Positions 1-57,833 of a stretch of 64,000 bases of DNA are shown here, one piece after another; the stretch's first letter is position 1, and the number at the start of each line of letters is the position of its first letter. Where the stretch lies: contig JAHBVF010000016.1 in assembly GCA_019637685.1 (NCBI GenBank), positions 62,001-126,000 on the forward strand. Reading direction: 5' to 3'. The notes below the pieces were generated by a model. The model made no database searches. It had not been told where the DNA came from and worked only from the letters and a program-made list of their open reading frames with translations. Source of the DNA: Caldilineaceae bacterium (GTDB taxonomy: Bacteria > Chloroflexota > Anaerolineae > Caldilineales > Caldilineaceae). The position numbers and the translations under genes are program-made.

Positions 1-1543
1 CGGTCAGGAAGTCCAGCATATTGGCTTCCAACTGGGCGACCATTTCGGGCAGGCTGTAATGCTCCACCCAGGCCGCGGCCAGTTCCAGGGCCAGGGCATT
101 GCCTGCCACCAATCGGCAGAGACGAGCCAAGACAGTCCGGCTCTGCGCAGAGACGGTAAAAGTATGTTTGCGTTGTCTGGCCCGCTCGATAAAAAGAGCG
201 ATACTGGCATAGGCGGTGTCGGGCAGGGGCAGGGGCGCGTTTTCCTGGGGGACGGACAGACCGTCCAGACGCACCACTGATTCACCCGCCACCAGCAGGG
301 GCTGGCGAGATGTCAGCAATAGTTGGCAATTGGGCGCGGCGTGCAGCAGGTCGGTGATAAAGGGAAGCCCAGATGTCAGGTGCTCGAAATTGTCCAGAAT
401 CAGCAGCAGGAAACGGTCGCGCAGGTGATGAAAAAGTTGAACCGATGGCTCGGTCGCGCCGGGAGTGGTAGAGAAGACCAGCCCCACAGACTGGGCCAGG
501 GCATTCGCCAGCCGTTGGCCCAAAGTTCCCAACGGCTGGGCCTCCACCTCGGCCAGCGAGGCAAAGCCAACCCCGTCAGGCCGCGCCTCGGCCAGTGCGT
601 GGCCCACGGCCAATGCCAAAGACGATTTGCCCACGCCACCCTCTCCGGCCAGCGTCACAAGCCGGGTGGCCGGTGTCTCCAGCAGAGAACGAACCAGAGA
701 AAGCTCCTCGCCGCGGCCAACAAAGGAGGTCAAGCGCTGAGGCAGATTGTTGCGGCGCGGGGTGGAGACGGGCGGGCCGGGTGGGCTGGGTGCAGTCAGT
801 GTACCCGCGGATATCTGTCGGTGAAGCTCTTGCAGTTTCTGGCTCGGTTCTATGTCCAGTTCCACGGCCAGAAGGCGATGGCAGCCGGCATAGTGGGCCA
901 GGGCCGCGGTGCGCTGACCGCTATAGGCCAGGGCGCGCAACATCTGCCCGTGGGCCTCCTCGTCCACTGGGTCTACGGCCAGCCAATCGGTTGCCAGCCG
1001 GATGGCGGTGGTGTGATCCCCCTGGCGGAGTGTGTAGTCCACCAGGCGCTGATAGCTTTGCAGGGCAAGGAAACGCAGCCGCTCCCGCTCGATGAGTGCC
1101 CACTGTTCAAAGCCCGACGCGCCGGAGATTTGAAACCCGGCCAAAAAATCGCCCCGATAACGGGCCAGGCTCTGGGCCAGCAGGGACGCACTGGCCGCGG
1201 ACAGATGCGGGCCAGCCGAGGCAATACCCGCTTCCAGTGCAGCCACATCCAGATCTAACCCGGCGCCGGGTGCAATGGAAAGCGCTTCGGGCGTGATGAG
1301 CAGACAGTCGCCGGCGTGGGCGCGCAGACGGGAAAGGACCGTGCGCAGGTTGGAGAGGGATTGGGCGGTGGAGCTGGCGTCCCAGAGCAGATCAGCCAGG
1401 AACTCCCGGCGCTGGGGGCCGGGGTTGCAGGCCAGATAAACGAGGAGGGCGATGGCCTTCTGGCTGCGCAGGCCGGTCAGGGGGCGATCGGCAAGGGTCA
1501 AGTTCAGCGTGCCCAGCAAATTGATTTGGAGTGATGCAGTCAT
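1..1543 (-). CDS. BTAD/SARP-type regulator with NB-ARC ATPase domain (3' end cut off)
   Basis: Transcription regulator of the AfsR/SARP type, read on the minus strand from an ATG at 1543 and still open at the window edge, so the C-terminus is missing. About 514 codons are visible. Residues 1-95 look like an OmpR-type winged-helix DNA-binding domain, about 100-245 like the bacterial transcriptional activation (BTAD) domain, and from about 275 an NB-ARC/STAND ATPase begins, with Walker A GEGGVGKSS (Lys306), LILDNFEH as Walker B and LLTSRQPL as sensor. The missing part would normally hold TPR or LuxR-type repeats. No clear Shine-Dalgarno precedes the ATG. It is divergent from the giant secreted protein at 1744, whose promoter carries 11-bp-period direct repeats of the kind SARPs bind, so that gene is a plausible target (inference). 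Confidence 0.85.
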   Translation of the reverse strand, partial: MTASLQINLLGTLNLTLADRPLTGLRSQKAIALLVYLACNPGPQRREFLADLLWDASSTAQSLSNLRTVLSRLRAHAGDCLLITPEALSIAPGAGLDLDVAALEAGIASAGPHLSAASASLLAQSLARYRGDFLAGFQISGASGFEQWALIERERLRFLALQSYQRLVDYTLRQGDHTTAIRLATDWLAVDPVDEEAHGQMLRALAYSGQRTAALAHYAGCHRLLAVELDIEPSQKLQELHRQISAGTLTAPSPPGPPVSTPRRNNLPQRLTSFVGRGEELSLVRSLLETPATRLVTLAGEGGVGKSSLALAVGHALAEARPDGVGFASLAEVEAQPLGTLGQRLANALAQSVGLVFSTTPGATEPSVQLFHHLRDRFLLLILDNFEHLTSGLPFITDLLHAAPNCQLLLTSRQPLLVAGESVVRLDGLSVPQENAPLPLPDTAYASIALFIERARQRKHTFTVSAQSRTVLARLCRLVAGNALALELAAAWVEHYSLPEMVAQLEANMLDFLT

Positions 1544-1660
1544 TGAATTGGCGTTGTTGGCTATGGGCGAAAGACCGTGCCTTTCATTCCGTGTGTCGGG
1601 GGTTTCAATTTGGGCCGAATTTTCGTCTATTGTATCACAGATCAGGTCGGGAAAGGATAC

Positions 1661-1694
1661 GTGAAGCGCTGGTGAAGCGCTGTTTTTTTATGCT
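1661..1694 (+). promoter_or_regulatory. Tandem 11-bp direct repeats next to a -10-like hexamer (possible SARP operator)
   Basis: GTGAAGCGCTG occurs twice head to tail at 1661-1671 and 1672-1682. A T-run follows, then TATGCT at 1689-1694, which could be a -10 element six bases after the second repeat. Characterised SARP activators bind direct repeats with an 11-bp period placed close upstream of the -10. A SARP-type gene sits immediately upstream and divergent. The repeat is seen directly; its function is inferred. Confidence 0.5.
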
Positions 1695-1743
1695 GGCGAT
1701 ACACACCCCTGTATCCGGCAAAGCTGTTCTGAAAGGACGAATA

Positions 1744-4700
1744 ATGAATCACCCACAATCTTCCATTGGCAATCGTCGTACCATTTCATTGACCGTGGGT
1801 CTCTGTCTATTGGCGGCTGCGATCCTGGCGCTGGCGCTGGCACCGACTGCCTGGGCCACTGTGCCTGCGGCCATCACGGCCAACGGCGATCTGGACCCGG
1901 CCTTTGACACGGACGGTCGGGTCAGTACTGATCTGGGCGGGGGCGAACGGGCCAATGGCATTGCCCAGCAGCCCGACGGCAGAATCGTCGCTGCCGGAAC
2001 CAGCAACAACGATTTCGCGGTGACCCGCTACCTGCCCGACGGCTCACTGGACACATCCTTCAGCGGCGACGGCCAGGTGATCACCGATCTGGGCGGCAGC
2101 GAGCGGGGCAACGCGGTCGCCATCCAGCCCGACGGCAAGATTGTGGTGGCCGGAACCAGCAACCAGGACTTTGCCCTGGCCCGCTACAATCCGGACGGCT
2201 CACTGGACACTTCTTTTGCCGGCGACGGCCTAGTGACGGTCAGCACAGACCCGTTGGGCGGGAACTTTAGGGCCGCCGAAGGCACTTCGGTTGCAATCCA
2301 GACCGACGGCAAGATTCTGGTCGGCGGCTCCATCAAACAGGGCGAGCCGAGGAAATTTGCTCTGGTGCGCTTACTCAGCGATGGAATCCTGGACCAGAGC
2401 TTCGACAGCGACGGCTTTGCCACGTCGCAATTTGATCCCGGTGGGCTGGCCGACGAGGAGATCAAAGACATTTCCGTGCGCGCCGACGGCGAGATCGCGG
2501 CGGTGGGCGAGTACAAATCCGGCCAGTTTGCCCTGGCCCGCTACAACCCGGACGGCTCGCTGAATGCCTCCTTTGGCAGCGGCGGTCGGGTGACAGTCAG
2601 CAACAAAGTGAGCACCGGCTACGGCGTGGGCTGGCAGGCCGACGGCTCGATTGTGGCCGCGGGTTCGAAATCGGTCACTGCGCAGAACAGCGCCAACTGC
2701 ATCGACTCCTCCGGCAAAAAGTGCGAGTACGACGACTTCTGGCTGGCCCGCTTCAACGGCAACGGCAGCCTGGACCCCAACTTCGGCACAGGAGGAGAAG
2801 TCACCGCGGCCATCAACAGCCGGGGCAACGACGACAACGGCCGCGGTCTGCTGGTACAGGCCGACGATAAAATTATCGTCTTTGGCTACTCGGATATGGC
2901 CGTGCATACCTTTTCCAATGGGGGCGACCAGCAGAACGTGTCGATTGCCAACGATTTCTCCCTGGTCCGCTTCAGTGGCGCGGGTCTGCTGGACGCCAGC
3001 TTTGGCATCAGCGGCACAGTGACCACCCCCTTCTTCCGCACCTGCGGCATCAACCAGTGCGACACCGGCGACGAAGCCCACGCCGGGCTGATTCAGGCCG
3101 ACGGGAAAATTGTGCTGGCAGGCGTCACCGGTACAGAGAGCAACAGCACCACCAACTTCGCCCTTGCCCGCTATGCCAACGACGTGGCCGGCGCGCCGAT
3201 TCTGCTGCCGGACACAATCCCCCAGCCCGACAACGCCACAACCCCGGAAGAGACGGCGGTCACAGTGGATGTGCTGGCCAACGACAGCAGCGGGGCAGGC
3301 TTCCCTCTCACCCTTCTTTCTGTGAGCAATTCCAGCGGCGGCACAGCCGTCATTGAAAACAACAAAGTCCGCTTCACCCCGGCCAAAGATTTCGAAGGCC
3401 CGGCCTACGTCTTCTATGCGGTCAGCAACGCCACACCGGGCATCGACCGGGTATCCACCAGTCTGCTGGTCAATGTGACGCCGGTCAACGACCCGCCCAC
3501 GGCCATCAGTCTGAGCCGGGCCAACGTGGCCGAGAATGCCCCCGAAGGTACGCCTGTGGGCCGCTTTCAGGCCACGGATGTGGACAAGGACGATCTGCAC
3601 ACCTTTTTCATCCTCTCCGGCCAGGACGGCGCGGCTTTCCAACTCAACGGCGACCAGCTTCTGACCCAAATGCCCTTCGACTACGAGACGAAGAGTAGCT
3701 ACACCGTTCGTGTCAAAGTCACCGACAGCGGCAATGCATCCTATGAACAGGACGTGACAGTCACCGTCGATGACGTGAACGACGCACCCACAGCCGTCAA
3801 TATCAGCAACGACCGGGTGGGCGAAAATCTGCCCGCAGGCACGGTTGTGGGCACACTCTCCTCTGTGGATCCGGACAGCGGCGACACCCACACCTACGCG
3901 CTGGTTCCCGGCTCCGGCGGCAACGGCAACGGGGCCTTCACCCTCAACGGCGCGACCCTCTCCACCGCGGTTTCCTTCGACTACGAGCGGCAGACGGGCT
4001 ACAGCATCCGCGCGCGCAGTACGGACCAGAAGGGGGCCTTCACCGAACAGCGGCTGGTGATTGGGGTCAACGATCAGGCCAGCCCACCGGACCCACCGCC
4101 CAATCTGCTCAGCCTCTGCTCCGGCGACGCCATCCCGCTGATGGACAACAGTGCCAGCGCTCCCGCCCGCAAAGTGCTGGCCCAGATCAACAATGTGGTG
4201 ATCACCAATCTGACGTCCACCACCTGTACGGTGACCGGTTCTCTGACTATCACCTCCAACGGCTCGACGGTCAGCAATCTGACCTTCCAGGGCAATGTGG
4301 ACGGCAGCAATCAGTTTGTCACCAGTTCCATCCAGGACTTCAGTCTGAGCATCGGGGGCATTGTCTTTGCCCTGCGCCAGGTTTCGGTGGCCTACGAATA
4401 TGGACAGCCTCAACTGCGCATCCGCCAGCCCGCGGTGACAATGCCTGCGGATTGGGGCGGTCTCAGCGCCCCCTTTGGCCGGGCGGCCACACTGGACGGT
4501 GGCGGCTTTGAATCTGCGGGGGCCTCCTTCAAGCTGCCCAAAATCGTTACGAAAGGCGGCTACGGACTGGACCTCTCCGGTTCGCTGAAACCCGCGGGCG
4601 ACGGCTATGAGATCGCCGCCGATGGCATTCTGAGCATTCCCAACGTTGGCAAGAACAAAGCCACCGGCGCCAAAGGCCAGACATGCGCCATCAACGCGGG

Positions 4701-7700
4701 CGTGACGATCTATGCCGGGAACGCCGGCGAGACGGTGATGGAGATCGCCACCTACGACCCGGCCAACGGTCAAGTCGCCCATCTGGTACACGAAGAGACT
4801 GGCAGTCCGGTTCTCGATCCCCGCTACGGAGACGATCTGAGCGTCGTGCGCCTGAGCGAAGTGCGGGTAGGCTTCAAATGCTCCCAGGGGATTCCTATCG
4901 GCAATACAGGACTCTTCCTGACATCGGTGAAGGGCACAATCTCCCTGCGCCCGGACAACGAGTTTGTGCGGGTGGATGTGACGGTCGAAGCTGCCAAGCG
5001 CATTCCAGCGATCAACAAACCGGCCCTCTCCATGGAGGGCACGATGCAGGTGGACATCAGCCCCCAGTTCCAGGTGGACCTGAGCGGCGCGCTCTATGTG
5101 CTCTCCTTCAAAATCGCCGAAGCCCAGGCGGTTGTCAACGAACGCAGCTTCCGGGCCGAGGTGAGCATCAGCGCCGTCTTTATCCACGGCAATGCCTGGA
5201 TTCACGCCTGGTCCGCCGACGACAGCTTCCACTTTACCGGGGGCGGCAACATCAGCGTCGGACTGAAGAAGGGGTCCATCGACAACAGTCTCTGCATCCC
5301 CTATCCCTGTGGCATAAAGACGTGCAGTTGGGGTCTCTTCGATGGCCCGTGCGGTGTCAAATTCTGCGAGGCGTGTGTCCCCATTCCTCCCTTCAGCCTC
5401 ACTCTGGCCAGCGGCGGTGCCCAGTTTGGCGAATTCACCAACGGGCGTTATGGCTTCAAAGGCTGGATTGATGTCCCCGTTGCCGGGTCGGTCGGCTTCT
5501 ATGTGGATGAAGAAGGCGATATCGACTTCGGGAATAACAACCAGTATCAGCTTGTCACCGGCCCCAGCGTGCGCGCGGCCTACACCCACTGGCGCAACGA
5601 CGAGTTGCAGAAGCGCGGCCAGCCAGCCGAATTCATCCAGCCCTGGGATGCGTCGATCTACGGCGTCGTCAATCGCGGCGCAATCCTGCCCGACGCCCAC
5701 AGCTTTGTCACCGATCGGTCGGGCCGTCTGTTGGGCGTCACTATCAACACGCGCCTGGACAAATCCGCGCTGGTCGAGCGCTACGACGGCCTGAACGCGG
5801 ACGCCGCGGTCTTCCTGCGGGCAGGCGATGTGATCAGCCCGGTCAATCTGCTCGACCAGGCGGATGTGGCCTTCTCTCTGGTCTCGGACAAACCCCTGAC
5901 CTTCAATCTGATCACCCCGGACGGGGATACGGTGACGACGGCCAATTACGCCAGTCATCCCAAATATGCGATTACCCACCAGCAGATCGACCGCTACGAA
6001 CCGGCCAATCCCCAGGAGATCATCTCCGGCACGGCGCGGCTGCGCTTCGTCCACGCCTCTGCCCAGACGAGCCTGGCGGCGGTGGATGTGAAGGTGGACG
6101 GATCACTCCTCTTCGCCAGCGCCCGCTTCACAGGCTCACTCCCGCTGGACTACGTGCCCCTGGCCCCCGGCGCGCATACAGTAGAGGTGCTGGCCGCGGG
6201 GGGCAGTCAGGTGCTCTTTACCCAACAGATGTCGCTGACCGCTGAGTTGGACTACACGCTGCTGCTGGCCGGTTCTGCCACAGGCGGCGCGTCCGCGGCT
6301 CTCTCCCTCCTCACCGACGACAACGCGCCGCCGACGGGCTACGATCAGAGCCGGGTGCGTTTTGTCAACGGTGCCAACAGGCCGCTGGATTTGTATGTGG
6401 GCGGGGCGAAGATATTCAGCCAGATTCCCTTCCGGGGCGCATCGGCGTACGCGACGATCGGCGCTGGCGAGAAGAATGTGGAGTTCCGCAACAGCAGCGG
6501 TCAGGTTGTGGGCGAAGGCGGCGTGGCGAGCTTTGCGCCCGGCGCAATCTACACCTTCTTCGCCACGGATGTTCAGTTGGGCGGCCAGCCCACTGTCGGC
6601 GGTCTGCAACGGCTGGACCGGGAATACATCCGCAACGTGCGCAACGAATACGGCGTGGATCAGGCCGAGATGGGGCTGTGGAAGGTGGAGATCACCGGCG
6701 ATCTGGACAATATCTACTACGCCATCTCCGTCTCCGGCCCCACCAGCCCGCCGGTTCTCGGCGGTGTGATGGTGGACGCCACAGACATCTCCAATGCCCA
6801 GGTGGGCTGGATGCTCACCTCTGACTATCTGACCAACGATTGCAACATCTACCTGAATCCAGGGCCGATTGTACAGACGGTGACGGTCACCAACAGCCTG
6901 GGGATGCGCACGACCGAAACCGTGCCCGTCTACGAGGGCTTCCCGGTGATGGAACTGGTCATCGACGACCCCAACGATCTGGGCCGTCCGCTGAATATGG
7001 GCATCGACATTTCTAATGTGCCGTCGGGCGACTATCATATGTGGATGCGGGTGGAGGACGGGGTGAACCCACCGGTTCCCGCCTATGCCATCGACGCCAA
7101 CTCGGCCCGCGCCCGCGCCATCACCGGCCCGGACGATCTGCGCTTCGGTGTCAACGCGGCCCGTTTTGCCAAAGCGGGCTACAGCCCTCTGGCCCAGTTG
7201 CAGGACGCGGTCACCATCAAAGTGGACCACTCGGCGAGCTGGCCCGGCAATTGGAACGCCACCATCCGCACGGAGCTGGACGAAACCGACGGCTCACTCT
7301 ACGTCGAATGGGAAGGGCTGGACCACCTGGACGCGGACAACTACGAAGTGCTGGTCAGCGCTGCGCCGATTGGAACCAGCCAGGTCATCTCTGCGGGCGG
7401 GCTGATCGCCCCCCGGGACGCCGACGGTAAAATCGTGGGCACGCCTCTGGGCTTCATCACCCTGCCCAATGTGGACCCGGAACAGACATACAGCATCTCC
7501 ATCCGGGCGGTCAACGGCTTCAACGGCAGCACAGTGACCTCCCAGCAGGTGAATGTGCAGGCCGCGGCCGGCGACTATCAACTGACGACACCCGCGGCCA
7601 GCTACACAGTGGCCCAGGGCAGTTCCGCACAGGTGACCGTCACCCTGCAAGAGCTTGCGACTCTCTTCTTCCCCGATGTGAGCCTGGGCGTGGACCTGAC

Positions 7701-7938
7701 CGGTGCGCCGCGAGGGCTGGATGTGGGTTTCACCGGCAGTGGCACGTCGATACTCAGCACTGCTGGGCCGACCGCCTATCTGCAAGTGAATGCCAGCAAC
7801 AGCCTGGCCGCCGGAAACTACAGCTTCAAAGTCATCGGCTACAACGGCACACGCCAGCGAGAGGTGACAGTGCAGATTGTGGTGGTGGAGGGCGCGCCAG
7901 AATTGCAAAACCTCTATCTGCCTGCTGTGGTTCGGTGA
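1744..7938 (+). CDS. Giant secreted delta-60/cadherin/DUF4397 repeat protein
   Basis: Predicted exported protein of 2064 residues. The start at 1744 follows GAAAGGACG and gives a clean signal peptide: basic residues, a hydrophobic core and an APTAWA cleavage region near residue 38. The frame stays open upstream to 1531 but that part lacks a signal. Residues about 48-480 hold some eight delta-60 repeats with the recurring pattern PDGSLDTSF...GKIVVAGTS, expected to form a beta-propeller-like fold. Next come an Ig-like domain near 490-590 and two cadherin-like domains (VNDPPTAISL, VNDAPTAVNI) to about 790. A large beta-rich region follows, with a cysteine-rich patch near 1182-1218. Two DUF4397-like units start at about 1430 and 1536, and an FnIII-like unit lies near 1846-1940. 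The C-terminus NLYLPAVVR resembles tails I recall from many Chloroflexota exported proteins. A surface adhesin or matrix role is inference. Confidence 0.85.
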   Translation: MNHPQSSIGNRRTISLTVGLCLLAAAILALALAPTAWATVPAAITANGDLDPAFDTDGRVSTDLGGGERANGIAQQPDGRIVAAGTSNNDFAVTRYLPDGSLDTSFSGDGQVITDLGGSERGNAVAIQPDGKIVVAGTSNQDFALARYNPDGSLDTSFAGDGLVTVSTDPLGGNFRAAEGTSVAIQTDGKILVGGSIKQGEPRKFALVRLLSDGILDQSFDSDGFATSQFDPGGLADEEIKDISVRADGEIAAVGEYKSGQFALARYNPDGSLNASFGSGGRVTVSNKVSTGYGVGWQADGSIVAAGSKSVTAQNSANCIDSSGKKCEYDDFWLARFNGNGSLDPNFGTGGEVTAAINSRGNDDNGRGLLVQADDKIIVFGYSDMAVHTFSNGGDQQNVSIANDFSLVRFSGAGLLDASFGISGTVTTPFFRTCGINQCDTGDEAHAGLIQADGKIVLAGVTGTESNSTTNFALARYANDVAGAPILLPDTIPQPDNATTPEETAVTVDVLANDSSGAGFPLTLLSVSNSSGGTAVIENNKVRFTPAKDFEGPAYVFYAVSNATPGIDRVSTSLLVNVTPVNDPPTAISLSRANVAENAPEGTPVGRFQATDVDKDDLHTFFILSGQDGAAFQLNGDQLLTQMPFDYETKSSYTVRVKVTDSGNASYEQDVTVTVDDVNDAPTAVNISNDRVGENLPAGTVVGTLSSVDPDSGDTHTYALVPGSGGNGNGAFTLNGATLSTAVSFDYERQTGYSIRARSTDQKGAFTEQRLVIGVNDQASPPDPPPNLLSLCSGDAIPLMDNSASAPARKVLAQINNVVITNLTSTTCTVTGSLTITSNGSTVSNLTFQGNVDGSNQFVTSSIQDFSLSIGGIVFALRQVSVAYEYGQPQLRIRQPAVTMPADWGGLSAPFGRAATLDGGGFESAGASFKLPKIVTKGGYGLDLSGSLKPAGDGYEIAADGILSIPNVGKNKATGAKGQTCAINAGVTIYAGNAGETVMEIATYDPANGQVAHLVHEETGSPVLDPRYGDDLSVVRLSEVRVGFKCSQGIPIGNTGLFLTSVKGTISLRPDNEFVRVDVTVEAAKRIPAINKPALSMEGTMQVDISPQFQVDLSGALYVLSFKIAEAQAVVNERSFRAEVSISAVFIHGNAWIHAWSADDSFHFTGGGNISVGLKKGSIDNSLCIPYPCGIKTCSWGLFDGPCGVKFCEACVPIPPFSLTLASGGAQFGEFTNGRYGFKGWIDVPVAGSVGFYVDEEGDIDFGNNNQYQLVTGPSVRAAYTHWRNDELQKRGQPAEFIQPWDASIYGVVNRGAILPDAHSFVTDRSGRLLGVTINTRLDKSALVERYDGLNADAAVFLRAGDVISPVNLLDQADVAFSLVSDKPLTFNLITPDGDTVTTANYASHPKYAITHQQIDRYEPANPQEIISGTARLRFVHASAQTSLAAVDVKVDGSLLFASARFTGSLPLDYVPLAPGAHTVEVLAAGGSQVLFTQQMSLTAELDYTLLLAGSATGGASAALSLLTDDNAPPTGYDQSRVRFVNGANRPLDLYVGGAKIFSQIPFRGASAYATIGAGEKNVEFRNSSGQVVGEGGVASFAPGAIYTFFATDVQLGGQPTVGGLQRLDREYIRNVRNEYGVDQAEMGLWKVEITGDLDNIYYAISVSGPTSPPVLGGVMVDATDISNAQVGWMLTSDYLTNDCNIYLNPGPIVQTVTVTNSLGMRTTETVPVYEGFPVMELVIDDPNDLGRPLNMGIDISNVPSGDYHMWMRVEDGVNPPVPAYAIDANSARARAITGPDDLRFGVNAARFAKAGYSPLAQLQDAVTIKVDHSASWPGNWNATIRTELDETDGSLYVEWEGLDHLDADNYEVLVSAAPIGTSQVISAGGLIAPRDADGKIVGTPLGFITLPNVDPEQTYSISIRAVNGFNGSTVTSQQVNVQAAAGDYQLTTPAASYTVAQGSSAQVTVTLQELATLFFPDVSLGVDLTGAPRGLDVGFTGSGTSILSTAGPTAYLQVNASNSLAAGNYSFKVIGYNGTRQREVTVQIVVVEGAPELQNLYLPAVVR

Positions 7939-15273: not shown

Positions 15274-17619
15274 ATGAATCCGAGCCACAGCAGTCAGACC
15301 CATTTAAATTATTTGCAGGGCAACGCACCCACTCCGGCCACTGGTATTGTCGCCCCTATTCTGGCAGAGACCTTGCTGGAGCTATCCGCCGAACTGCTGA
15401 CTGCCTTCGACAGCGCTCAACTGCTGGAGCGTATTCTCGCGTTGTTGAGCCACCTGGTCGAATATGAAACAGCGGCCATCCATCTCATGGACGGCCAACA
15501 GTTGATCACACAGGCCGGCAAGGGAGGCCCTGCCGCCACAGTAGGCCATTTCAATTATCACCGGGAAAGCGATTTTATCTGGCAATACCTGGAACAAGAG
15601 AAACGGCCCTATCTGGCCCACGACCTGCACACAGAGCCGTGGCACCCCCTACCCGGTTTCGAATCCATCCGCTCGTTTATGGCCGTACCGCTGACTGCCG
15701 AGGGCGAACTGATGGGCGTCCTCACGGTCGATCACTCCTTGCCCCATTGCTTTGACGACAATCAGGTGCGTCTGATCACCCTTTTTGCCAACCAGGCATC
15801 GACCGCGCTGACACGAGCCCGCCTGCTGGAATCAGAACGACAGCAGCACCGCTTTGTCGAAAGCCAATTGGCCTTTTCCTATCGCCTGATGCAGACCGAT
15901 TCCAGCGAAGCGGCCATCGATGCATTGCTGGAAATTATTGAGGCAATTGTTGCGTTTGACGCGGCTTCGGTTACGCTGCTGACGCCGGGCGAGGCCGAGC
16001 AGGGCTACATCGCCGCGGTTCGCGGCTATTCCAGCCCGGATGACGCGGTCCTCCAATTTGTGGATATGCGGCGTTTTGAACTGCTGGCCGAATTGATGGA
16101 AGAACGCAAACCCATCTATCTGGCGGAAATGCGGGAAGCCAACCGCTGGCAGCCCAGCACCCAGCCCGACAGCCAGGAAGTCCGCTCTATCCTTCTCGTC
16201 CCGCTGCTGGTGGATACCCGATCCGAGCTCCTCGGCTTTGTCACCCTAAAAAGCTATCGGCCCAAAGCCTTTCCTATCGCTGTGCAGAACAATGTAGCGC
16301 TGCTCTGTAACCAGACAGCAGGCGCCTTGCGCACCCTGCGTCTGCTGGAAGAAGCCCGCCACCGCTTGGCAGAAGTGGCAGTCCTCTCGGAAATGAGCGC
16401 CCACCTCAACCGCTCTTATGATCTGAACGAAACCCTGCATTTTGTGTTGAAACGGGTTGTCTCTGTGATCTGCCAGGGGGAGGACCCCCACGGCGTACAC
16501 GGAGCCATCATTCTGCGCACACCGGGCAGCGACAGGCTACACATGGCCGTGGGCCACAATCTGGACGAAGAGGAGATCGCGGCCTTCAATTCCCACGCCT
16601 ATCGGGTTCACGAAGGCACGTTTGCCCAATCGATTGGCGAAGGCGAATGGGTAGAAATGGGAAACAGGGAAACGGTGGCAAAAGCGCAGGCCAAACAATT
16701 TGCCAATCTCAGCCCCCGTCAATTGCTCGATATTCCCCTGCGCGTAGGTGCAGAGACCATTGGCATCATTTCTGTGGATCGGGTGGCCCAGGACCCAACC
16801 ACCCGCCAATTGCTGGCTGCCATCTCCGATCTGGCAGGTTCCGCCATCCAGAAAACCCAGGCGCTGGAACAAAGCCGTCAGCGCGCGGTTGAATTGATCG
16901 AAACCTACGACCGGCTACAGGCCCTGGATCGGGAGCAGGATGAATTCATCCAGAACATCACCCACGACCTGAAAGCGCCCCTGACATTCATCCGCGGCTA
17001 TGCGGAACTCATGGGCGAGGGCGCATTGGGCAAGATTACCCCGGAGCAGAGGGAAGCATTGGAGGTAATTCAGGAACGCACAGATGCTGTCAATCTTCTC
17101 ATTTCCAACATTCTTACCATAAAAGATGTGGAAGCCAGACCGATGGAAGAAGTCCCCCTCCATCTGGATGAGATTGCCTCCAAAGTGGCACGCAATGCAC
17201 GCATGGCCGCGCGGCTATCGGGGCTGGAGATCCAAGTGGTGGCCACCAGCAAACCGGTGATCGTGCAGGGGGATGGGATGCGGATGGAACAGGTCTTTGA
17301 AAATCTGCTGAGCAATGCCATCAAATACAGCCCGGAAGGCGGAGTCATCCATATTATTGTAGAGGCAAGCACGGAGACAGTGCTGGTCTCTGTCTCGGAT
17401 GAGGGCATCGGCATTCCCGCCCAGGAGATCGAGAGTGTCTGGGCGCGATATTACCGGGGGGCTGGTATGAGCGCCAATGGGAGCGGATTGGGGCTGGCCA
17501 ATGTACGCCGCATTGTGGAGGCCCACGGCGGGCGCATTTGGGTCCACAGCGCCGGGCGGGGCACAACATTCACTTTTGAGCTGCCCCGCTATCGGGGAGA
17601 GCCATCAGCGGCGAGCTGA
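15274..17619 (+). CDS. Soluble sensor histidine kinase with three GAF domains
   Basis: Cytoplasmic two-component kinase of 781 residues with no membrane segment. Three GAF domains lie at about 45-185, 210-360 and 385-535 and should bind small ligands or a chromophore. A HisKA dimerisation domain follows, with the phosphoacceptor His564 in NITHDLKAPLT. The HATPase domain shows the N box NLLSNAIKYSP, the G1 box DEGIGIP and the G2 box GSGLGLANV. No cysteine is placed in a way that I recognise as bilin attachment. There is no response regulator next to it, so it is an orphan kinase. Its 3' end overlaps the 3' end of the converging RarA-fusion gene by 50 bases. Confidence 0.92.
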   Translation: MNPSHSSQTHLNYLQGNAPTPATGIVAPILAETLLELSAELLTAFDSAQLLERILALLSHLVEYETAAIHLMDGQQLITQAGKGGPAATVGHFNYHRESDFIWQYLEQEKRPYLAHDLHTEPWHPLPGFESIRSFMAVPLTAEGELMGVLTVDHSLPHCFDDNQVRLITLFANQASTALTRARLLESERQQHRFVESQLAFSYRLMQTDSSEAAIDALLEIIEAIVAFDAASVTLLTPGEAEQGYIAAVRGYSSPDDAVLQFVDMRRFELLAELMEERKPIYLAEMREANRWQPSTQPDSQEVRSILLVPLLVDTRSELLGFVTLKSYRPKAFPIAVQNNVALLCNQTAGALRTLRLLEEARHRLAEVAVLSEMSAHLNRSYDLNETLHFVLKRVVSVICQGEDPHGVHGAIILRTPGSDRLHMAVGHNLDEEEIAAFNSHAYRVHEGTFAQSIGEGEWVEMGNRETVAKAQAKQFANLSPRQLLDIPLRVGAETIGIISVDRVAQDPTTRQLLAAISDLAGSAIQKTQALEQSRQRAVELIETYDRLQALDREQDEFIQNITHDLKAPLTFIRGYAELMGEGALGKITPEQREALEVIQERTDAVNLLISNILTIKDVEARPMEEVPLHLDEIASKVARNARMAARLSGLEIQVVATSKPVIVQGDGMRMEQVFENLLSNAIKYSPEGGVIHIIVEASTETVLVSVSDEGIGIPAQEIESVWARYYRGAGMSANGSGLGLANVRRIVEAHGGRIWVHSAGRGTTFTFELPRYRGEPSAAS

Positions 17620-19846
17620 GAATCAGCGCCGTCCGGCTCTCCCAGCGGATCTGCTGGTGCAGCAGTTGCGCCCGCACCAATGCCTCGATTGTATCCACTT
17701 CCTCTTTTGTCAGCTTCTCGGCCAGGCGCTGGGCATAGGAAGGCCGCTCCCCGGTAGCTGGCCCAAACCAGCGAGCGAGCAGCGCCGGCGTCACTTGCAT
17801 ATCCATCCCACCCGCCAGCAGTTGCACATCCCAGGCCCGGTTTTCAATTTTGCCCAGGGCGGTCCGCAGGTCTTCCTCGTCCCAATTGACCAGTTCATCC
17901 CGCGTATCCCGGTAGATCGCTTCCTCCGCGGCCCGAAAGCGCTGGGCCAGATCGTCTCCCAAACCGGCACAATCGATCAGCGCGTAGATCCGCTGGGTGT
18001 GGCGGGGTATCCGTTCGGCCAGGGCCAGCCAGCCATCTGCGGACAGCAGCCCGGCCAGGCGGGCCAAATCCCCGGCTCTGTCCGACGAGCGCAGCAGCGC
18101 GTTGCGCCCCACAATGCCGTCAAAGCGCAGGGACGGTTCGTCGGCCAGCAGATGGGGCAGAGAAGCGAGCAGTCCTTCCAGCACCTGGGGTCGGTCCACT
18201 GGCGACAGGGAAGCGGCCTGATCCCGCAGCGCCTGGGCCTCGTCAGCCGTGTAGGCCAGGGCATAGACACCCCCTTCGGGCAGACGGCGCACCGCCTCCC
18301 ACGTGAGGAGACCACTGGCCGCGTTCACATCCAGCAGCACGCCGTGCCGGGGCAGGGGCGCTGTGGAGAGCAGGCGGTCCCGCAGCCGCGCCAGTTCCGC
18401 GCCGGCATTGGAAATCGTCCGTTGCAGCCAGCGTTCCCGCGCGCTGTCCTGGGGTGAGAAGGTGAGAATCTCCGGGGGCGCACCGGTCTCGTCCATCATG
18501 GCAGCCAGTTGGGCCTCCCGGCGCTGGGTCACCTGACGCTGCACCCGGGCCTCATCGCCCCGCTCCGACGGGCGATAGAAGACTTTGCCCTGCATGGAGT
18601 CGGGCAAATATTGCTGGGCTACCCAATGCTCCCGGTAGGCGTGGGGATAGAGATAGCCTTCCCCGTGGCCGAAGCCTTCCTTGTCCCGGTTGGCATCCCG
18701 CAGGTGGTTGGGCACATCGCTCTCTGGCTCGTTGCGGATCGTCTCCAGGGCATCGAAGAAGGCCATTGCCGAATTCGACTTTTCTGCTGTAGCCAGATAG
18801 ATGGTGGCGTGGGCCAGGGGAAAGTGGCCTTCGGGCAGACCGATGCGATCGAAGGCGGCCGCGCAGGCTGTGACCACCTGTATGGCCTGGGGATCGGCCA
18901 TCCCCACATCCTCCCCGGCAAAGATAATCATCCGGCGGAAAATGAAGCGGGGGTCCTCGCCGGCGTAGATCATCTTTGCCAGCCAGTAGAGAGCCGCGTC
19001 GGGATCACTGCCCCGCAGACTTTTGATGTAGGCGGAAATGGTGTCGAAGTGATAATCGCCCTCTTTGTCATAGAGCACAGCCCGGCGCTGGATGGATTCC
19101 TCGGCAATCTCCATTGTGATGCGAATTTCGGGCGGGCTGTCGGTGGCTTTGGTTGAGCTTGTCGAAACCGGTGTGGTCTCCGCGGCCAGTTCCAGGGCAT
19201 TGAGCAGGGCGCGGGCGTCGCCATTGGATACACTGACCAGATGATCCAGCGCGTCTTCGTCGATGGTGGCGTTGCGCTTGCCATAGCCCCGCTCCGGGTC
19301 GGCCAGGGCGTGGCGGGCGATCTGGCGCAGGTGGTCTTCGTTCAGGGGTTTGAGCTGAAAGATACGGCTGCGGCTGACCAGCGCTTTGTTCACCTCAAAA
19401 TAGGGATTTTCGGTGGTCGCGCCGACGAAAATAACCGTCCCGTTCTCTACCCAGGGCAGGAGCGCGTCCTGCTGGGCTTTGTTGAAGCGGTGAACTTCGT
19501 CCACAAAGAGGATTGTGCGTTGATTGTGCAGGGCCAGCCGTTCTTGCGCCTGGTCGATGGCCGCGCGGATGTCCTTTACCCCGGCCAGCACAGCGTTGAG
19601 TGCAATAAAGTGGGCGGCGGTGGTGTTGGCGATGACCTGGGCCAGGGTCGTCTTGCCTGTGCCCGGCGGGCCATAGAAGATGAGGCTGCTCAGTTGGTCG
19701 GCCTGGATAGCCCGGCGCAACAGTCGCCCCGGCCCGACAATTGCCTCCTGGCCCACAAAGTCGTCCAGCACCCGGGGACGCATACGCGCGGCCAGAGGCG
19801 CATCGCTCTCCATCCGTTCCTTCCGGGCCTGCTCGAATAGATTCAT
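17570..19846 (-). CDS. rarA: RarA/MgsA AAA+ ATPase fused to a methyltransferase-like domain
   Basis: A 758-residue protein. The first 440 residues are a replication-associated recombination ATPase: Walker [10 protein letters not shown] near residue 60, Walker [21 protein letters not shown], sensor ATTENP, arginine finger SRSRIF, and the C-terminal helical domain with [18 protein letters not shown]. RarA acts on stalled replication forks and single-strand gaps, and binds SSB. Residues about 470-758 resemble a Rossmann methyltransferase-type fold ([19 protein letters not shown]) that lacks a clear glycine-rich GxGxG loop. RarA is normally about 440 residues, so this is a fusion of a kind I recall from cyanobacteria. 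A 19-base palindromic repeat is embedded in frame at 19151-19169. The start at 19846 was taken from the usual MNLFEQA N-terminus. Confidence 0.9.
19151..19169. repeat. GAGCTTGTCGAAA-type repeat embedded in rarA
   Basis: GGTTGAGCTTGTCGAAACC is a variant of the widespread bacterial REP word TGAGCTTGTCGAA. It lies inside the rarA reading frame without breaking it and encodes the insert region VSTSSTKA between the ATPase lid and the helical domain, where RarA proteins usually have a short loop. Confidence 0.65.
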
Positions 19847-19907: not shown

Positions 19908-20753
19908 CTAGCCCCAATCCCCGATCTCTGCCAAAACAGGCCGGTGATCTGAGGCTTCGCGGCCCAGTTCTTCCGGCCAGACCTGTACAGAATTCAGCGC
20001 CGGGGCCAGGGGTTGGCTGAGGAAGATGTAATCGATGCGCAGAGGGACCGCGGCCGGGATGAATGTACCCTGGCCCACCAACTCCTTTGCGCGCATGGCG
20101 TCCACATAGCCCGCCTTCTCCATTTGGGGAATCACCCGCATCCCGCTCTCTTGCAGCAGAGGGCCAGCCGGGGGGTGGTTTTCCACCAGGGACACCAGAT
20201 CGTCCTGGCGCTGGGCAAAATCCCAGGGGGAGACGGCGTTGAAATCACCCATCACCACATGCGGCCGGTTGCGATCTCGTATAGTCCAGGTGCGCAGCGC
20301 GCGCAACTGGACCAGCCGCGCCTCCTCGGACGTGTGGTCCAGGTGGGTGACATAGGCGGTGAAATTGCGTCCGTCGGGAAGGAGGATGCGTCCTTCCAGC
20401 AGCCCCCGCTGCTCCTTCTCCGGCACGGGCGTCAGGTGATGAGCCGCGCTGGCAATAATGGGCCAACGGCTGAACAGGGCGTTGCCGTAGCTCTTTTCCG
20501 GCATTTCATCGGTGGCGGGCCAACGCAGGCACGGGCCAAAAGCAAAGTGCATCCCCAGCGCTGCCGCGACACGCGCCAAAACAGGCGTCGGGCTATGCGA
20601 ATTTTGTGCGTCAGCGTCGTAGACGGGGTGAAAAACTTCGTTCAAGCCAATCACATCGGCCCCGGTCGCTCCAATCACCTGCACAATCTGCTGCCAATTG
20701 GGATTCCCTTCAGTCGTGCGCCATCCGTGAATGTTATAAGTCAATATCCGCAT
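19908..20753 (-). CDS. Endonuclease/exonuclease/phosphatase-family hydrolase
   Basis: A 281-residue EEP-superfamily enzyme. The metal and catalytic motifs are in order: TYNIHG near residue 5, GLNEVF with the metal-binding glutamate, the YVTHLDH loop, MGDFNA and the terminal SDHRPV with the catalytic histidine. It lacks a signal peptide, so it probably acts in the cytoplasm. The superfamily includes nucleases, sphingomyelinases and inositol phosphatases, so the substrate cannot be settled from sequence. It reads away from the candidate origin, starting 28 bases from its first DnaA-box-like word. Confidence 0.88.
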   Translation of the reverse strand: MRILTYNIHGWRTTEGNPNWQQIVQVIGATGADVIGLNEVFHPVYDADAQNSHSPTPVLARVAAALGMHFAFGPCLRWPATDEMPEKSYGNALFSRWPIIASAAHHLTPVPEKEQRGLLEGRILLPDGRNFTAYVTHLDHTSEEARLVQLRALRTWTIRDRNRPHVVMGDFNAVSPWDFAQRQDDLVSLVENHPPAGPLLQESGMRVIPQMEKAGYVDAMRAKELVGQGTFIPAAVPLRIDYIFLSQPLAPALNSVQVWPEELGREASDHRPVLAEIGDWG

Positions 20754-20781
20754 CTGATTTGGCCCTTTTTAGTATACGAAA

Positions 20782-21220
20782 TTATCCCCTGCTTATCCCC
20801 ACCTGGGGATAACTATCGGGATTGGGGATAGATGTGGGGATAAGTGGGTGCAAAAGTGGATAAATAAGCTGTTGATTTCCTGTTTACCAATTTTATCCCC
20901 GCTTTTGCCAGTTATCCCCAGGCAAAGTAGTACTTTGGAACTACCACTGTATCTAGCGTAGCCCATCCGTTCGACAGACGGCTGTCCGCTGCTTTCCACA
21001 AAGTATCCTGCGGAGTCTGCCCATTCCGTTGAGCAGATTCTCTTTTTGCCTACCCTATATGTGGGACACTACACGCGTGTCACCACCACATATATACGGC
21101 CAACAGGTGATTCTGCGGGTATGTGTTTACTTATCCCCATATCCCCAGCCCCTACTAAAACTATTAAAATTAAAAGATATTTCTATTGAAAGATATCAGG
21201 ATTAAACGAAAAGATACAGC
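20782..21220. other. Candidate chromosomal replication origin: DnaA-box cluster plus AT-rich repeats
   Basis: This gene-free 470-base gap holds repeated TTATCCCCA-type 9-mers, one change from the classic TTATCCACA DnaA box. Exact TTATCCCCA is at 20793-20801, 20912-20920 and 21131-21139, and on the other strand at 20804-20812 and 20835-20843. Near matches are at 20782 (…CCCCT), 20823 (reverse, CTATCCCCA), 20855 (reverse, TTATCCACT), 20893 (…CCCCG) and 21139 (ATATCCCCA). An AT-rich stretch from about 21149 follows, with AAAGATA at 21173, 21189 and 21210, like an unwinding element. dnaA, dnaN and recF are not adjacent, so the assignment needs GC-skew support. Confidence 0.65.
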
Positions 21221-21225
21221 CAGTC

Positions 21226-21750
21226 TCAAAAGCGTTGGCGATCGGGCAATAGAATATCGAGAGGGTTGAAGAAAGGCAATGGATTCGTAAAACCTCCCCA
21301 CCCGTCCAATCGATTGTAGGGATAGGTGCGAATGGCAAAATGTAAGTGGGGTCCGCTGCTGCTGCCTGTATTGTTGGAAAAACCGATCAATCCGCCCCGT
21401 GGCACAGTCTGGCCCGCGTCAACGGCGAAGCCTTGCAGATGTGCGTAGAGCGATTCCCCCCACCAGTGCTGTAACTTGATAAAGAGGCCATAGCCCGTCG
21501 GGTCATTGGCAATTTCAATGACCCGTGCCTTGTCAGTCGCCAACAGCCGGGTGTGCTCGGGCATGCCAAAATCCAGCCCATTGTGACCGGACAGGGGTCT
21601 GCCGCCCATCTGAAACCGTTGATAGTAGCCAGGATTCTCGCCCCACAGTTGGGTAATCCGACGGCGACCCTCGAAGGGGGCAGAGAGAAAGATACCCTCT
21701 GGTTCATAATGGCCCCTTTCAATAGGTTTGTTGAGAAAGTCGAACGACAC
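21226..21750 (-). CDS. M23-family peptidase domain protein without signal peptide
   Basis: A 174-residue LytM/M23 metallopeptidase domain. Zinc ligands are visible as HNGLDFG (His and Asp) and the HLHF pair in GSSSGPHLHFAIRT, so the site looks intact. Such enzymes cut peptidoglycan cross-bridges. I chose the GTG at 21750 because CAGGAGAAG lies eight bases upstream; longer readings from 21879 or 22053 overlap the FmdB gene or have no ribosome site. The chosen form has no signal peptide or membrane segment, which is odd for a cell-wall enzyme; a leaderless export route or a non-classical role is possible. It ends at the AT-rich edge of the candidate origin. Confidence 0.8.
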   Translation of the reverse strand: MSFDFLNKPIERGHYEPEGIFLSAPFEGRRRITQLWGENPGYYQRFQMGGRPLSGHNGLDFGMPEHTRLLATDKARVIEIANDPTGYGLFIKLQHWWGESLYAHLQGFAVDAGQTVPRGGLIGFSNNTGSSSGPHLHFAIRTYPYNRLDGWGGFTNPLPFFNPLDILLPDRQRF

Positions 21751-21915
21751 AGGACGCTTCTCCTGAGATGCGGTGATAAGGACAGTCGGTACTCTCCCAA
21801 TTCGACAGAGACGATCAAATTCAGTATACTCTGTTAGTTGACGTTCGCCCACTTGTGGGCGTTGCCACTTTGCAAACATACGATTTGAGATAAGCACTAC
21901 GCAGGAGAGTACCTT

Positions 21916-22314
21916 ATGCCCATCTATGAATTTATATGCGGTGATTGCGGGCACGAATTCGAAAAAATTATGTCGTTCTCTGCATCCACCCCTGTGTGCG
22001 CCCGTTGTGGCGCGGCCAATGTGACCCGTCAAATGGGGCGTCCCGCCATCCATTTTAAGGGCAGTGGCTGGTATATCAATGACAGCAAAAAGGGCAAAGG
22101 CAAGAACGGCAGCAATAACCCCGCGTCTGCCCCGGCTGGCGAGGCCGGTGAAGGCGGAGAGAGCGGGGAGAGCAGCAGCGAGAAAACCGCTGCCGAAAGT
22201 ACCGCATCGACAGAGAATGGCAAAAGCGAAAGCAAAGCTGCTGACAAAAAAGAGCCTGCCCCCAGCCGGGAGAGTTCCAGCAGTGCGCCGGCGGCCAAGA
22301 CGGAAAGCGTCTGA
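21916..22314 (+). CDS. FmdB-family zinc-ribbon protein with low-complexity tail
   Basis: A 132-residue protein. Residues 1-45 are the FmdB/regulatory zinc ribbon: MPIYEFICGDCGHEFE followed by CARCGAANV, giving two CxxC pairs for one zinc ion. Residues about 55-132 are low in complexity and rich in Lys, Ser, Glu, Ala and Gly, and are probably disordered. Proteins of this kind are small accessory factors of uncertain role, often next to ribosome-hibernation or cell-wall genes. The start follows CAGGAGAGTACCTT. The upstream gap of 165 bases (21751-21915) contains an inverted repeat CGCCCAC/GTGGGCG at 21846-21861 that could be an operator. Confidence 0.88.
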   Translation: MPIYEFICGDCGHEFEKIMSFSASTPVCARCGAANVTRQMGRPAIHFKGSGWYINDSKKGKGKNGSNNPASAPAGEAGEGGESGESSSEKTAAESTASTENGKSESKAADKKEPAPSRESSSSAPAAKTESV

Positions 22315-34037: not shown

Positions 34038-35255
34038 TCAACGCTTCAGTCGCTGCCAATCAAACATCCCCGCGCCGCGCCCTTCTGTCAGCAGCCCAAA
34101 GGCCCGTTCGGCCACTTTAATGCCCAGGCCCATTCCGTGGCCGTTGAAACCCACGCAGAAGAATACCCCCGGCTGGTCGGGCATCTCCCCCACCAGCGGC
34201 AGTCCGTCGTCGGTGAAACCCATTGTGCCTGCCCAGCGGTGGCTGATAGGCACATCTGCCAGTTCGGGGAAATATCGGGCTGTGTACGCACTGATGTCTG
34301 CCTGCACCTTCGCTGTGACATTTTCATCGGTCAAATGATTCTCTGTGGCATAGTTCAAATGGCGTGCGCCGCCGATCAGCCAGCGCCCCATCCCCGGCTG
34401 GTCTGGCTCGGCCACCTGGCGGAAGTAGTAGTAGCCAAAATGGCTGTAGCCCGCCACAGGGAAGACCAGCGGCGCGGGTTCACTCACCTGAATCTGGCCG
34501 CGCCGGGGGTGAACTTTGCCCTGGAAAAAAGGATGGAAGAGGGCTGAGTATCCGTTTGTCGCCAGCAAGACGCGGCGGGCGTGGATAGTGGCCCGACTGC
34601 TTTCCACCCGCAGGCCCGTGCCCGCAGGGGTGATTTCCGTCACGGCTGCGCTGCTTATCACCCGCACACCAGAGGCCGCCAACAGCGCCCGGTTGAAATG
34701 GGCCGGTTGAATCACCCCATCCGCGGGTCGATGCAGCCCGGCCAGAAAGCCCCGGCCAAAGAAATCCGTGGACGCGAAGTGGTGGTCAAAGCCATCTGCT
34801 TGCAACAGGCGGGCAGACCCGGCCAGGGCCTCCGCCTCCTCTGCGCAGTCGGCCAGCAGCCAGCTTCCGCAGCGTTCGCTGGGGACGCCCAACCTGGCCG
34901 CCAACCCCAGCATCATCTCCCGGTTGTCGATGGTGAGCTGCCAAAGCTCTTTCGCTGCCTGTCGCCCATACTGCTCAACCGCACTGGCATAGCTTTCGGC
35001 AATACCACACAGAGCCATCCCCGCGTTGCGGCCTGTGGCGCCCAGCGCGGGCTGCCGGGCATCCAGCAGCACCGCTTCGATCCCCGCCTGTTGGGCAAAC
35101 CAGGCGATGCTGCTGCCGATGACGCCACCACCGACAATGCACAGGTCGGTTTCTATTTTCAGCCCTTCCCCCGGTGGGGCTTCGGGCGTGGGCAGGCCGA
35201 TGCTCTGCTGCCAGAAGGAAGTAGTGGCAAAACGGTCGAGGAAAGTGGATGCCAT
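34038..35255 (-). CDS. FAD-dependent amine/amino-acid oxidoreductase (DAO family)
   Basis: A 405-residue flavoenzyme of the glycine oxidase/D-amino-acid oxidase family. The N-terminal dinucleotide-binding motif is DLCIVGGGVIGSSIAWFAQQAG, followed by LLDARQPALGATGRNAGM, which is characteristic of the gamma-glutamylputrescine oxidase (PuuB-like) branch. The C-terminal FAD contact is VGFNGHGMGLGIKVAE. It should oxidise an amine or amino acid and release H2O2 and ammonia; the exact substrate is not clear. AAAGGGATTTAGCA precedes the ATG. It starts 13 bases downstream of the secreted glycosidase-like gene, so the two may share a transcript. Confidence 0.9.
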   Translation of the reverse strand: MASTFLDRFATTSFWQQSIGLPTPEAPPGEGLKIETDLCIVGGGVIGSSIAWFAQQAGIEAVLLDARQPALGATGRNAGMALCGIAESYASAVEQYGRQAAKELWQLTIDNREMMLGLAARLGVPSERCGSWLLADCAEEAEALAGSARLLQADGFDHHFASTDFFGRGFLAGLHRPADGVIQPAHFNRALLAASGVRVISSAAVTEITPAGTGLRVESSRATIHARRVLLATNGYSALFHPFFQGKVHPRRGQIQVSEPAPLVFPVAGYSHFGYYYFRQVAEPDQPGMGRWLIGGARHLNYATENHLTDENVTAKVQADISAYTARYFPELADVPISHRWAGTMGFTDDGLPLVGEMPDQPGVFFCVGFNGHGMGLGIKVAERAFGLLTEGRGAGMFDWQRLKR

Positions 35256-52902: not shown

Positions 52903-54960
<2,058 letters not shown>

Positions 54961-55422: not shown

Positions 55423-56700
55423 CTACAGATAGTCCCGCAGGCGGCGGCTACGGCTGGGGTGGCGCAGTCGGCTGAGGGCTTGGGCCTCGATCTGCCGGAT
55501 ACGCTCCCGCGTCACGCCGAACTTTTTGCCCACCTCTTCCAGCGTGTAGCAATAGCCATCGACCAGCCCAAAACGCAACTGGAGAATACGTACTTCCCGG
55601 GGAGTCAGGCTGGCGAAGATTTCATCGATCACTTCGCGCAGCAACTGCTGGCCCGCCGATTCCTGGGGGCTGTCCGCGTCTTCGTCCTCGATGAAATCGC
55701 CCAGATAGCTGTCTTCTTCCTCACCCACCGGCATTTCCAAACTCAGAGGGCGCTGGCTGACCCGCATAATGTGCTCCACTTTGCGCGGGGTCACGCCCAA
55801 CTCTTCAGCGATCTCCTCCGTCGTCGGGTCACGCCCCAATTCCTGCACAAGCTGGCGGCTGGTGCGGGTCAATCGGTTGATCTGTTCGTACATGTGTACG
55901 GGCACACGGATGGTGCGGCCCTGGTCTGCTATGGCACGGGTCACGGCCTGGCGAATCCACCAGGTGGCATAGGTGCTGAATTTGAAGCCCCGGCGATAGT
56001 CGAACTTCTTCACAGCCCGAATCAGGCCGATATTGCCTTCCTGAATCAGGTCCAGAAACGGTACGCCCCGCCCCACATATTTTTTGGCGACACTCACCAC
56101 CAGCCGGCTATTGGCTTTGATCAGATGTTCGGTGGCCGACTGGCCATCCCGCACAAGCCAGAGCATCTTTTCCCGCTCTTCCCAATCTTCCATTCCATCG
56201 GCCAGCGTTTGGCGAGAATCCCGGCCCGCCTCCATGCGTTTGGCCAGGTCAATCTCTTCTTCTGCTGTGAGCAGCGGGACGCGGCCGATCTCTTTCAGAT
56301 AGAGGCTGATAGAATCGTCGATTTCGATCTGACTCAGGTCAAAATCGTCTTCTTCCGCCTTGTCCCCGTTGTCTTTGATCTCCGGAATGGCGTCTTCTTT
56401 GGACTGTCCCACAGCAATGCCCTGCTCGAAAAGCGTGGCAAAAATGTCTTCCAATTGCTCTATATTGTTCTCGACTTCAGGCATAAGTTTGAGGACGTCG
56501 TCATAGCTGACGAATCCTTTGGAACGTCCCACCTTCAACAGATAGTCCATTGTCTCCTGTGGACTGCGGACAACTGTCTCCTCGGACTCTTCACCTTCGG
56601 CTTCGGGCATGTCCATCTCCTCGGCGTTCGGCTCATTTTGTTCCATTTCCATTTCGTCGATCTCTTCTTCTTCCGATGCAAATCGTGTTTTCTCTGCCAC
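55423..56700 (-). CDS. rpoD: Primary RNA polymerase sigma factor RpoD
   Basis: Housekeeping sigma factor of 425 residues. Region 1.1-like acidic N-terminus (residues 1-110) is followed by region 1.2 ([28 protein letters not shown]), region 2 with the -10 recognition helix ([29 protein letters not shown]), region 3 and region 4 with [23 protein letters not shown], which reads the -35. The start is the GTG at 56700, with AGAGGGGG seven bases upstream; the TTG at 56733 lacks a site. The near-consensus promoters at 8064 and 50144 are fitting targets. Confidence 0.97.
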
Positions 56701-57817: not shown

Positions 57818-57833
57818 TGTTTCACGTGAAACA
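57818..57833. other. Perfect 16-bp parS site (ParB binding)
   Basis: TGTTTCACGTGAAACA is an exact 16-bp palindrome that matches the near-universal bacterial parS consensus, where ParB-CTP loads and spreads for chromosome segregation. It lies in the intergenic region between the minus-strand methyltransferase gene and the plus-strand thiolase gene. parA and parB are not in the window. parS sites cluster near the chromosome origin in most bacteria, in line with the DnaA-box cluster 37 kb away. Confidence 0.93.

Follow-up and report, generated by a model that had tools for sequence, protein, structure and literature searches.

A likely chromosomal replication origin with C-rich DnaA boxes in a Caldilineaceae bacterium

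From a 64,000-nucleotide stretch of DNA (the window) of a member of the Caldilineaceae (Chloroflexota), we propose that the intergenic gap at 20754-21225 is the chromosomal origin, oriC, a reading that we hold to be quite probable. The box array, the unwinding core, parS, gyrB, dnaA and the gradient of GC content agree with one another, and it is from this agreement that we argue for an origin; we stop short of a firmer statement because the sign that the GC skew takes in a related genus, g8, and the way in which ribosomal genes point there count against it. An earlier note on this DNA had put forward a candidate origin here, and that proposal is now supported by the conservation of the array and core in all 7 sampled members of the genus, by the recurrence of its box word upstream of dnaA and by parS, gyrB and dnaA, which are near the site in the host's assembly or in relatives. 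Comparison with relatives also supports a lineage-specific, C-rich DnaA box at the predicted origin, in line with the note's suggestion that the G/C-rich form of the box may be a trait of this lineage. In the full texts of the literature searched, we found no described origin for the Caldilineaceae. Our reading would give the family a concrete origin, a box word and an unwinding core, together with a pattern by which the probable origin can be found in many draft genomes. Software for finding origins relies on a skew minimum and a neighboring dnaA, both of which would mislead here.

The box array and the unwinding module

The gap is 472 bp long, contains the entire predicted origin and is free of genes; as noted earlier, both flanking genes, one for an Exo_endo_phos nuclease (19908-20753) and the other for a peptidase M23 (21226-22053), lie on the minus strand. 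Within 366 bp of this gap (20782-21147), there are 9 TTATCCCCA boxes with at most 1 mismatch, 5 of them perfect and 4 with 1 mismatch, distributed on both strands; a tenth box, TTATCCACT at 20855, has 2 mismatches to TTATCCCCA, so that the earlier count of about ten boxes was accurate. The array begins with TTATCCCCT (20782-20790, plus strand, 1 mismatch), followed by 2 copies of TTATCCCCA (20793-20801, plus; 20804-20812, minus) that form the left and right halves of the mirrored pair TTATCCCCACCTGGGGATAA at 20793-20812, which was described before and is indeed exact. Next come CTATCCCCA (20823-20831, minus), TTATCCCCA (20835-20843, minus) and the TTATCCACT box, embedded in AAAGTGGATAAA (20855-20863, minus) and invariant in 7 of 7 genus members; a TTATCCAC-type box likewise occurs in most of the other genera with the array. 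The array closes with TTATCCCCG (20893-20901, plus), whose position is less conserved, and TTATCCCCA (20912-20920, plus).

This clustering in non-coding DNA, as in a DnaA-dependent bacterial oriC, stands out against several controls. The window holds 25 matches to TTATCCCCA at no more than 1 mismatch against 11.1 expected, a number that no shuffle reached, and the maximum in any 400 bp is 9 boxes for TTATCCCCA versus at most 3 for permuted words (60 controls). The 5 perfect copies in the gap are the only such group in the whole assembly (6.32 Mb, 70 contigs); elsewhere in it, never more than 2 perfect copies lie close together, and the sole close pair is the one upstream of dnaA.

The second module begins with an upstream box, TTATCCCCA (21131-21139, plus), overlapped by a downstream box, ATATCCCCA (21139-21147, plus). 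A G/C-rich spacer, GCCC (21148-21151, plus), follows, the distance between the upstream box and the first trio being 12 bp, and leads into a DnaA-trio-like stretch, CTACTAAAACTATTA (21152-21166, plus), which on the other strand reads 3'-GATGAT. The adjoining AT-rich putative unwinding element (21153-21215) includes the lowest-GC 60-mer of the window (21156-21215, 18% GC). This 60-mer comes after the last box, which bears out the AT-rich stretch reported earlier and gives the boxes the adjacent unwinding element of a DnaA-dependent bacterial oriC. The same note had pointed to AAAGATA words, and they do stand at 21173, 21189 and 21210, in steps of 16 and 21, but a role for them in the origin did not hold up: at these 3 positions they are seen in this genome only and not in its relatives, and the window has 11 AAAGATA words in total. 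We therefore rejected AAAGATA as an origin repeat. From the alignments, the conserved putative unwinding element is the tandem box together with CCTACTA, and the AAAGATA words appear incidental.

We suggest a plausible mechanism for the opening of this DNA. We infer that the host DnaA binds these boxes: it would occupy the TTATCCCCA-type array at 20782-20920, the mirrored pair included, and also the tandem pair at 21131-21147, which is oriented toward the DNA to be melted. From the tandem pair, DnaA would oligomerize along the trio-like CTACTA strand, and the AT-rich DNA at 21153-21215 would then be melted. The helicase could be loaded at the melted stretch, from which 2 forks would depart.

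Conservation and comparison with known origins

With the nuclease gene as a guide, we retrieved the corresponding gap from each of the 7 genomes sampled in the genus and aligned the sequences. Two modules are kept in all 7, the box array (20782-20867) and the unwinding module (21131-21215), the latter consisting of TTATCCCCATATCCCCAG-nn-CCTACTA and then AT-rich DNA; this is the comparison across relatives that the earlier note had called for, and array and core also recur in other genera. Invariant alignment columns are found at 20780-20867 and 21131-21157, in a small patch at 20940-20979, and in little else. Of additional note, this patch between the modules (15 of 40 columns invariant in 20940-20979, with the conserved spacer stretch at 20950-20979) is not a DnaA box and is a possible site for another protein.

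The unwinding module extends beyond the genus. CTACT is invariant in the 7 genus members and CTA in 18 aligned sequences from 5 genera, across which the element has the form TTATCCCC-A-TATCCCCAG-nn-CCTAC-T/G-A, with AT-rich DNA after it. The second-module pattern CCCCATATCCCCAGNNCCTA, at no more than 2 mismatches, matches 35 of 46 family genomes, a figure that includes some chance matches because a reversed control pattern occasionally matches and a few matching loci have no box array (those without any array include L049, L050, L069, L075, L076 and L078). Nearly all matches in g8, and 1 each in g9, g11 and g12, have an adjoining array. By pattern or alignment, the unwinding core is thus found in 7 of 7 genus members, in most of g8 and in g9, g11 and g12, and the module is present in at least 4 genera besides that of the host.

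These comparisons also bear on whether the boxes might be a chance or regulatory cluster that controls transcription of the flanking genes. Throughout the genus the region does lie upstream of the nuclease gene at 19908-20753, as such a cluster would. Against this, the best core match in G020 is about 5 kb from the nuclease gene, and in g8 the core is present where no nuclease gene was detected, for example in G013 and G024; the core therefore does not depend on this neighbor, and we regard transcriptional control or chance as very improbable.

As an origin, the second module recalls the basal unwinding system, which combines paired DnaA boxes with a short spacer and with 3'-GAT-5' trios next to the melting site and is widespread in bacteria (PMC8287927). 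Like its version in the B. subtilis oriC (boxes 6/7 and DnaA-trios), the module has direct tandem boxes, a short spacer, CTA (3'-GAT-5') triplets and AT-rich DNA. Its 12-bp spacer, counted from the upstream box, falls inside the published peak of 10-13 bp, and its upstream box is nearer to the consensus than the downstream one, as in that system (PMC8287927). It differs from B. subtilis in its box word, which is TTATCCCCA and not TTATCCACA, in the overlap of the 2 boxes by 1 base, in having few and degenerate trios, and in not lying beside dnaA. By the definition that we used (box or boxes, a spacer no longer than 16 bp, then 3 or more NAN triplets on the 3'-5' strand), the boxes and the spacer fit. 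Reading the aligned trios by eye gives CTA CTA and, after a break, CTA TTA in G000, and CTA CTA ATA in sisters such as G003; in g8 they are degenerate, mostly CTA CGA. On its own, a succession of NTN triplets within AT-rich DNA is only weakly indicative.

Two further origins offer partial parallels. In the E. coli oriC, DnaA boxes on both strands form an array next to an AT-rich region that melts, and the origin lies apart from dnaA. The present site shares the both-strand array by AT-rich DNA and the position away from dnaA, but its box word and box arrangement differ, and its AAAGATA words are not conserved. The bipartite oriC of H. pylori has 2 box groups with the melting site by one of them (PMC8235120). 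The site here is alike in having 2 box groups and a putative melting site adjoining one; it is unlike in that the groups are about 210 bp apart with no gene between them, and in its box word.

dnaA and the chromosomal setting

The dnaA gene of the same genome lies on another contig, C15, where it is followed by recA and not by dnaN. Domain IV of its product is intact (Bac_DnaA_C; matches 1j1v and 3pvp), and the helix-turn-helix (L006 13096-13395) has GGRDHST, as against GGRDHTT in E. coli and B. subtilis, a change that could be related to the altered box word. In the single-contig relatives, dnaA is 0.23 Mb (G055), 0.21 Mb (G057) and 0.11 Mb (G058) from the site.

Upstream of dnaA on C15 (L006 10945-11145) there are boxes of the same type, 2 perfect and the others with 1 or 2 mismatches, which probably serve autoregulation. 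The earlier note had held that a distinct box cluster beside dnaA would speak against an origin in the gap. Such a group does exist, but it is smaller, and inspection showed no trio element of the CTACTA type next to it; on this ground we rejected the dnaA promoter boxes as the origin. This second group would nevertheless be expected if the gap were a non-firing element bound by DnaA, with a role like that of E. coli datA or DARS in titrating or reactivating DnaA, the real origin being elsewhere, for example beside dnaA. The skew sign in G055 and G057, which by the usual rule does not mark the site as an origin, would also fit. Yet a conserved tandem box, spacer and CTACTA by the lowest-GC stretch have the look of an unwinding site (PMC8287927), which is unexpected in a titration site, and no such trio was seen on inspection of the boxes at dnaA. 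We therefore consider a non-firing element quite unlikely, and take the gap rather than the dnaA promoter to be the probable origin.

Other landmarks of an origin lie in the same window. An exact parS palindrome, TGTTTCACGTGAAACA, at 57818-57833, the sole exact copy in the 6.32-Mb assembly, is 36.7 kb from the box array, giving the site the origin-proximal parS of a ParB/parS region in its own assembly; its neighbors are a methyltransferase gene on one side and a thiolase gene on the other. gyrB (52954-54960, plus) is 32 kb from the array. In g8 the distance to parS is larger, 0.24 Mb in G058 and 0.49 Mb in G055 (an inexact site). In G001, contig C25 carries an exact parS at 34342, and 22 kb off, at 56445-56501, there is an inverted pair of CTAACGTATATTTTGTCAA, which matched the dif pattern at 3 mismatches.

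Three relatives from genus g8, G055, G057 and G058, are each a single contig and so allow the whole chromosome to be considered. All 6 of their 16S genes (2 in each) lie within 0.7 Mb of the site, and 4 of the 6 point away from it. GC content and skew were taken from 20-kb samples, 40 in G055 and 20 in G057, the sampled share of each relative's chromosome being 7-16%. GC content commonly falls from origin to terminus, and here it becomes lower the farther a sample lies from the site (rho -0.64 in G055 and -0.58 in G057), with best centers no more than 0.15 Mb away and the lowest values at the antipode; in G058, the gradient around the site was not significant. In G055, we found no other TTATCCCC cluster, neither near the antipode nor elsewhere, except for a pair at dnaA.

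Strand asymmetry and gene direction

Within sampling resolution, both G055 and G057 have their strongest two-arm split in GC skew at the site. Since the right arm is negative (-0.046 in G055, -0.129 in G057) and the left arm positive (0.091 and 0.065), the cumulative GC skew has its maximum at the site in these 2 genomes, and by the usual rule a cumulative maximum marks the terminus. The AT skew is mirrored too. The third codon positions in G055 move in concert whichever strand a gene is on, and gene direction is therefore not the explanation of the skew. No GC skew was seen in G058. In the host's own contig, there is a weak local skew minimum at the site, and the third-position skew flips there with the conventional sign; the minimum that the earlier note had proposed to look for is thus present only as a weak, local one in that contig, but G055 and G057 have a maximum in its place, so that the skew gives an ambiguous answer.

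In all 3 single-contig genomes, the genes for L2 (S10 operon), EF-G and EF-Tu are directed toward the site. The tRNA units, with 44 away versus 56 toward, lean weakly the same way, a bias that is not significant, and the coding-strand share is too even to indicate a direction. These observations, with the skew maximum, would be conventional if replication ran toward the site, which would then lie in the terminus half with the origin near the antipode: both skews (GC and AT) and the direction of ribosomal operons would follow the usual rules, and tRNA-unit orientation also best fits an origin near the antipode in 3 of 3 genomes, though this fit was optimized over many positions. Such an arrangement would put dnaA, parS and all 16S genes near the terminus, and it is opposed by the GC content, which is lowest at the antipode in G055 and G057, by the lack of a TTATCCCC cluster at the G055 antipode, by the 16S majority pointing outward and by the conventional flip in the host's own contig. 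We judge it quite unlikely.

In the genus of G055 and G057, either the strand asymmetry is mirrored or the site is on the terminus side. If the gap is an origin, as we favor, at least 1 genus of the Caldilineaceae would have a strand asymmetry mirrored about a DnaA-type origin, with more C and A on the leading strands and with ribosomal-protein and elongation-factor genes head-on to replication; we advance this only tentatively, at somewhat less than even chances. The 3 single-contig relatives may also be misassembled. A clear precedent for an inverted GC skew at a bacterial origin was not found in the literature searched, which does not by itself prove novelty. A mirrored asymmetry, if true, would test the cause of GC skew because its sign is usually held to be near universal.

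Other markers of direction were tried. A search for dif with the consensus core at no more than 3 mismatches gave scattered matches, none at a shared place, and no dif site. Polar octamers were rejected as a substitute for KOPS: the strongest ones track the skew or come from local repeats in a single sample, and so no direction was read from them.

Elsewhere in the window, 17570-19846 (minus) encodes a RarA/MgsA-type AAA+ ATPase of 758 aa whose C-terminal extension weakly matches Methyltransf_23 (residues 483-611), and 1531-7938 (plus) encodes a protein of 2135 aa that has DUF5122 propeller, DUF4397 and cadherin-like domains.
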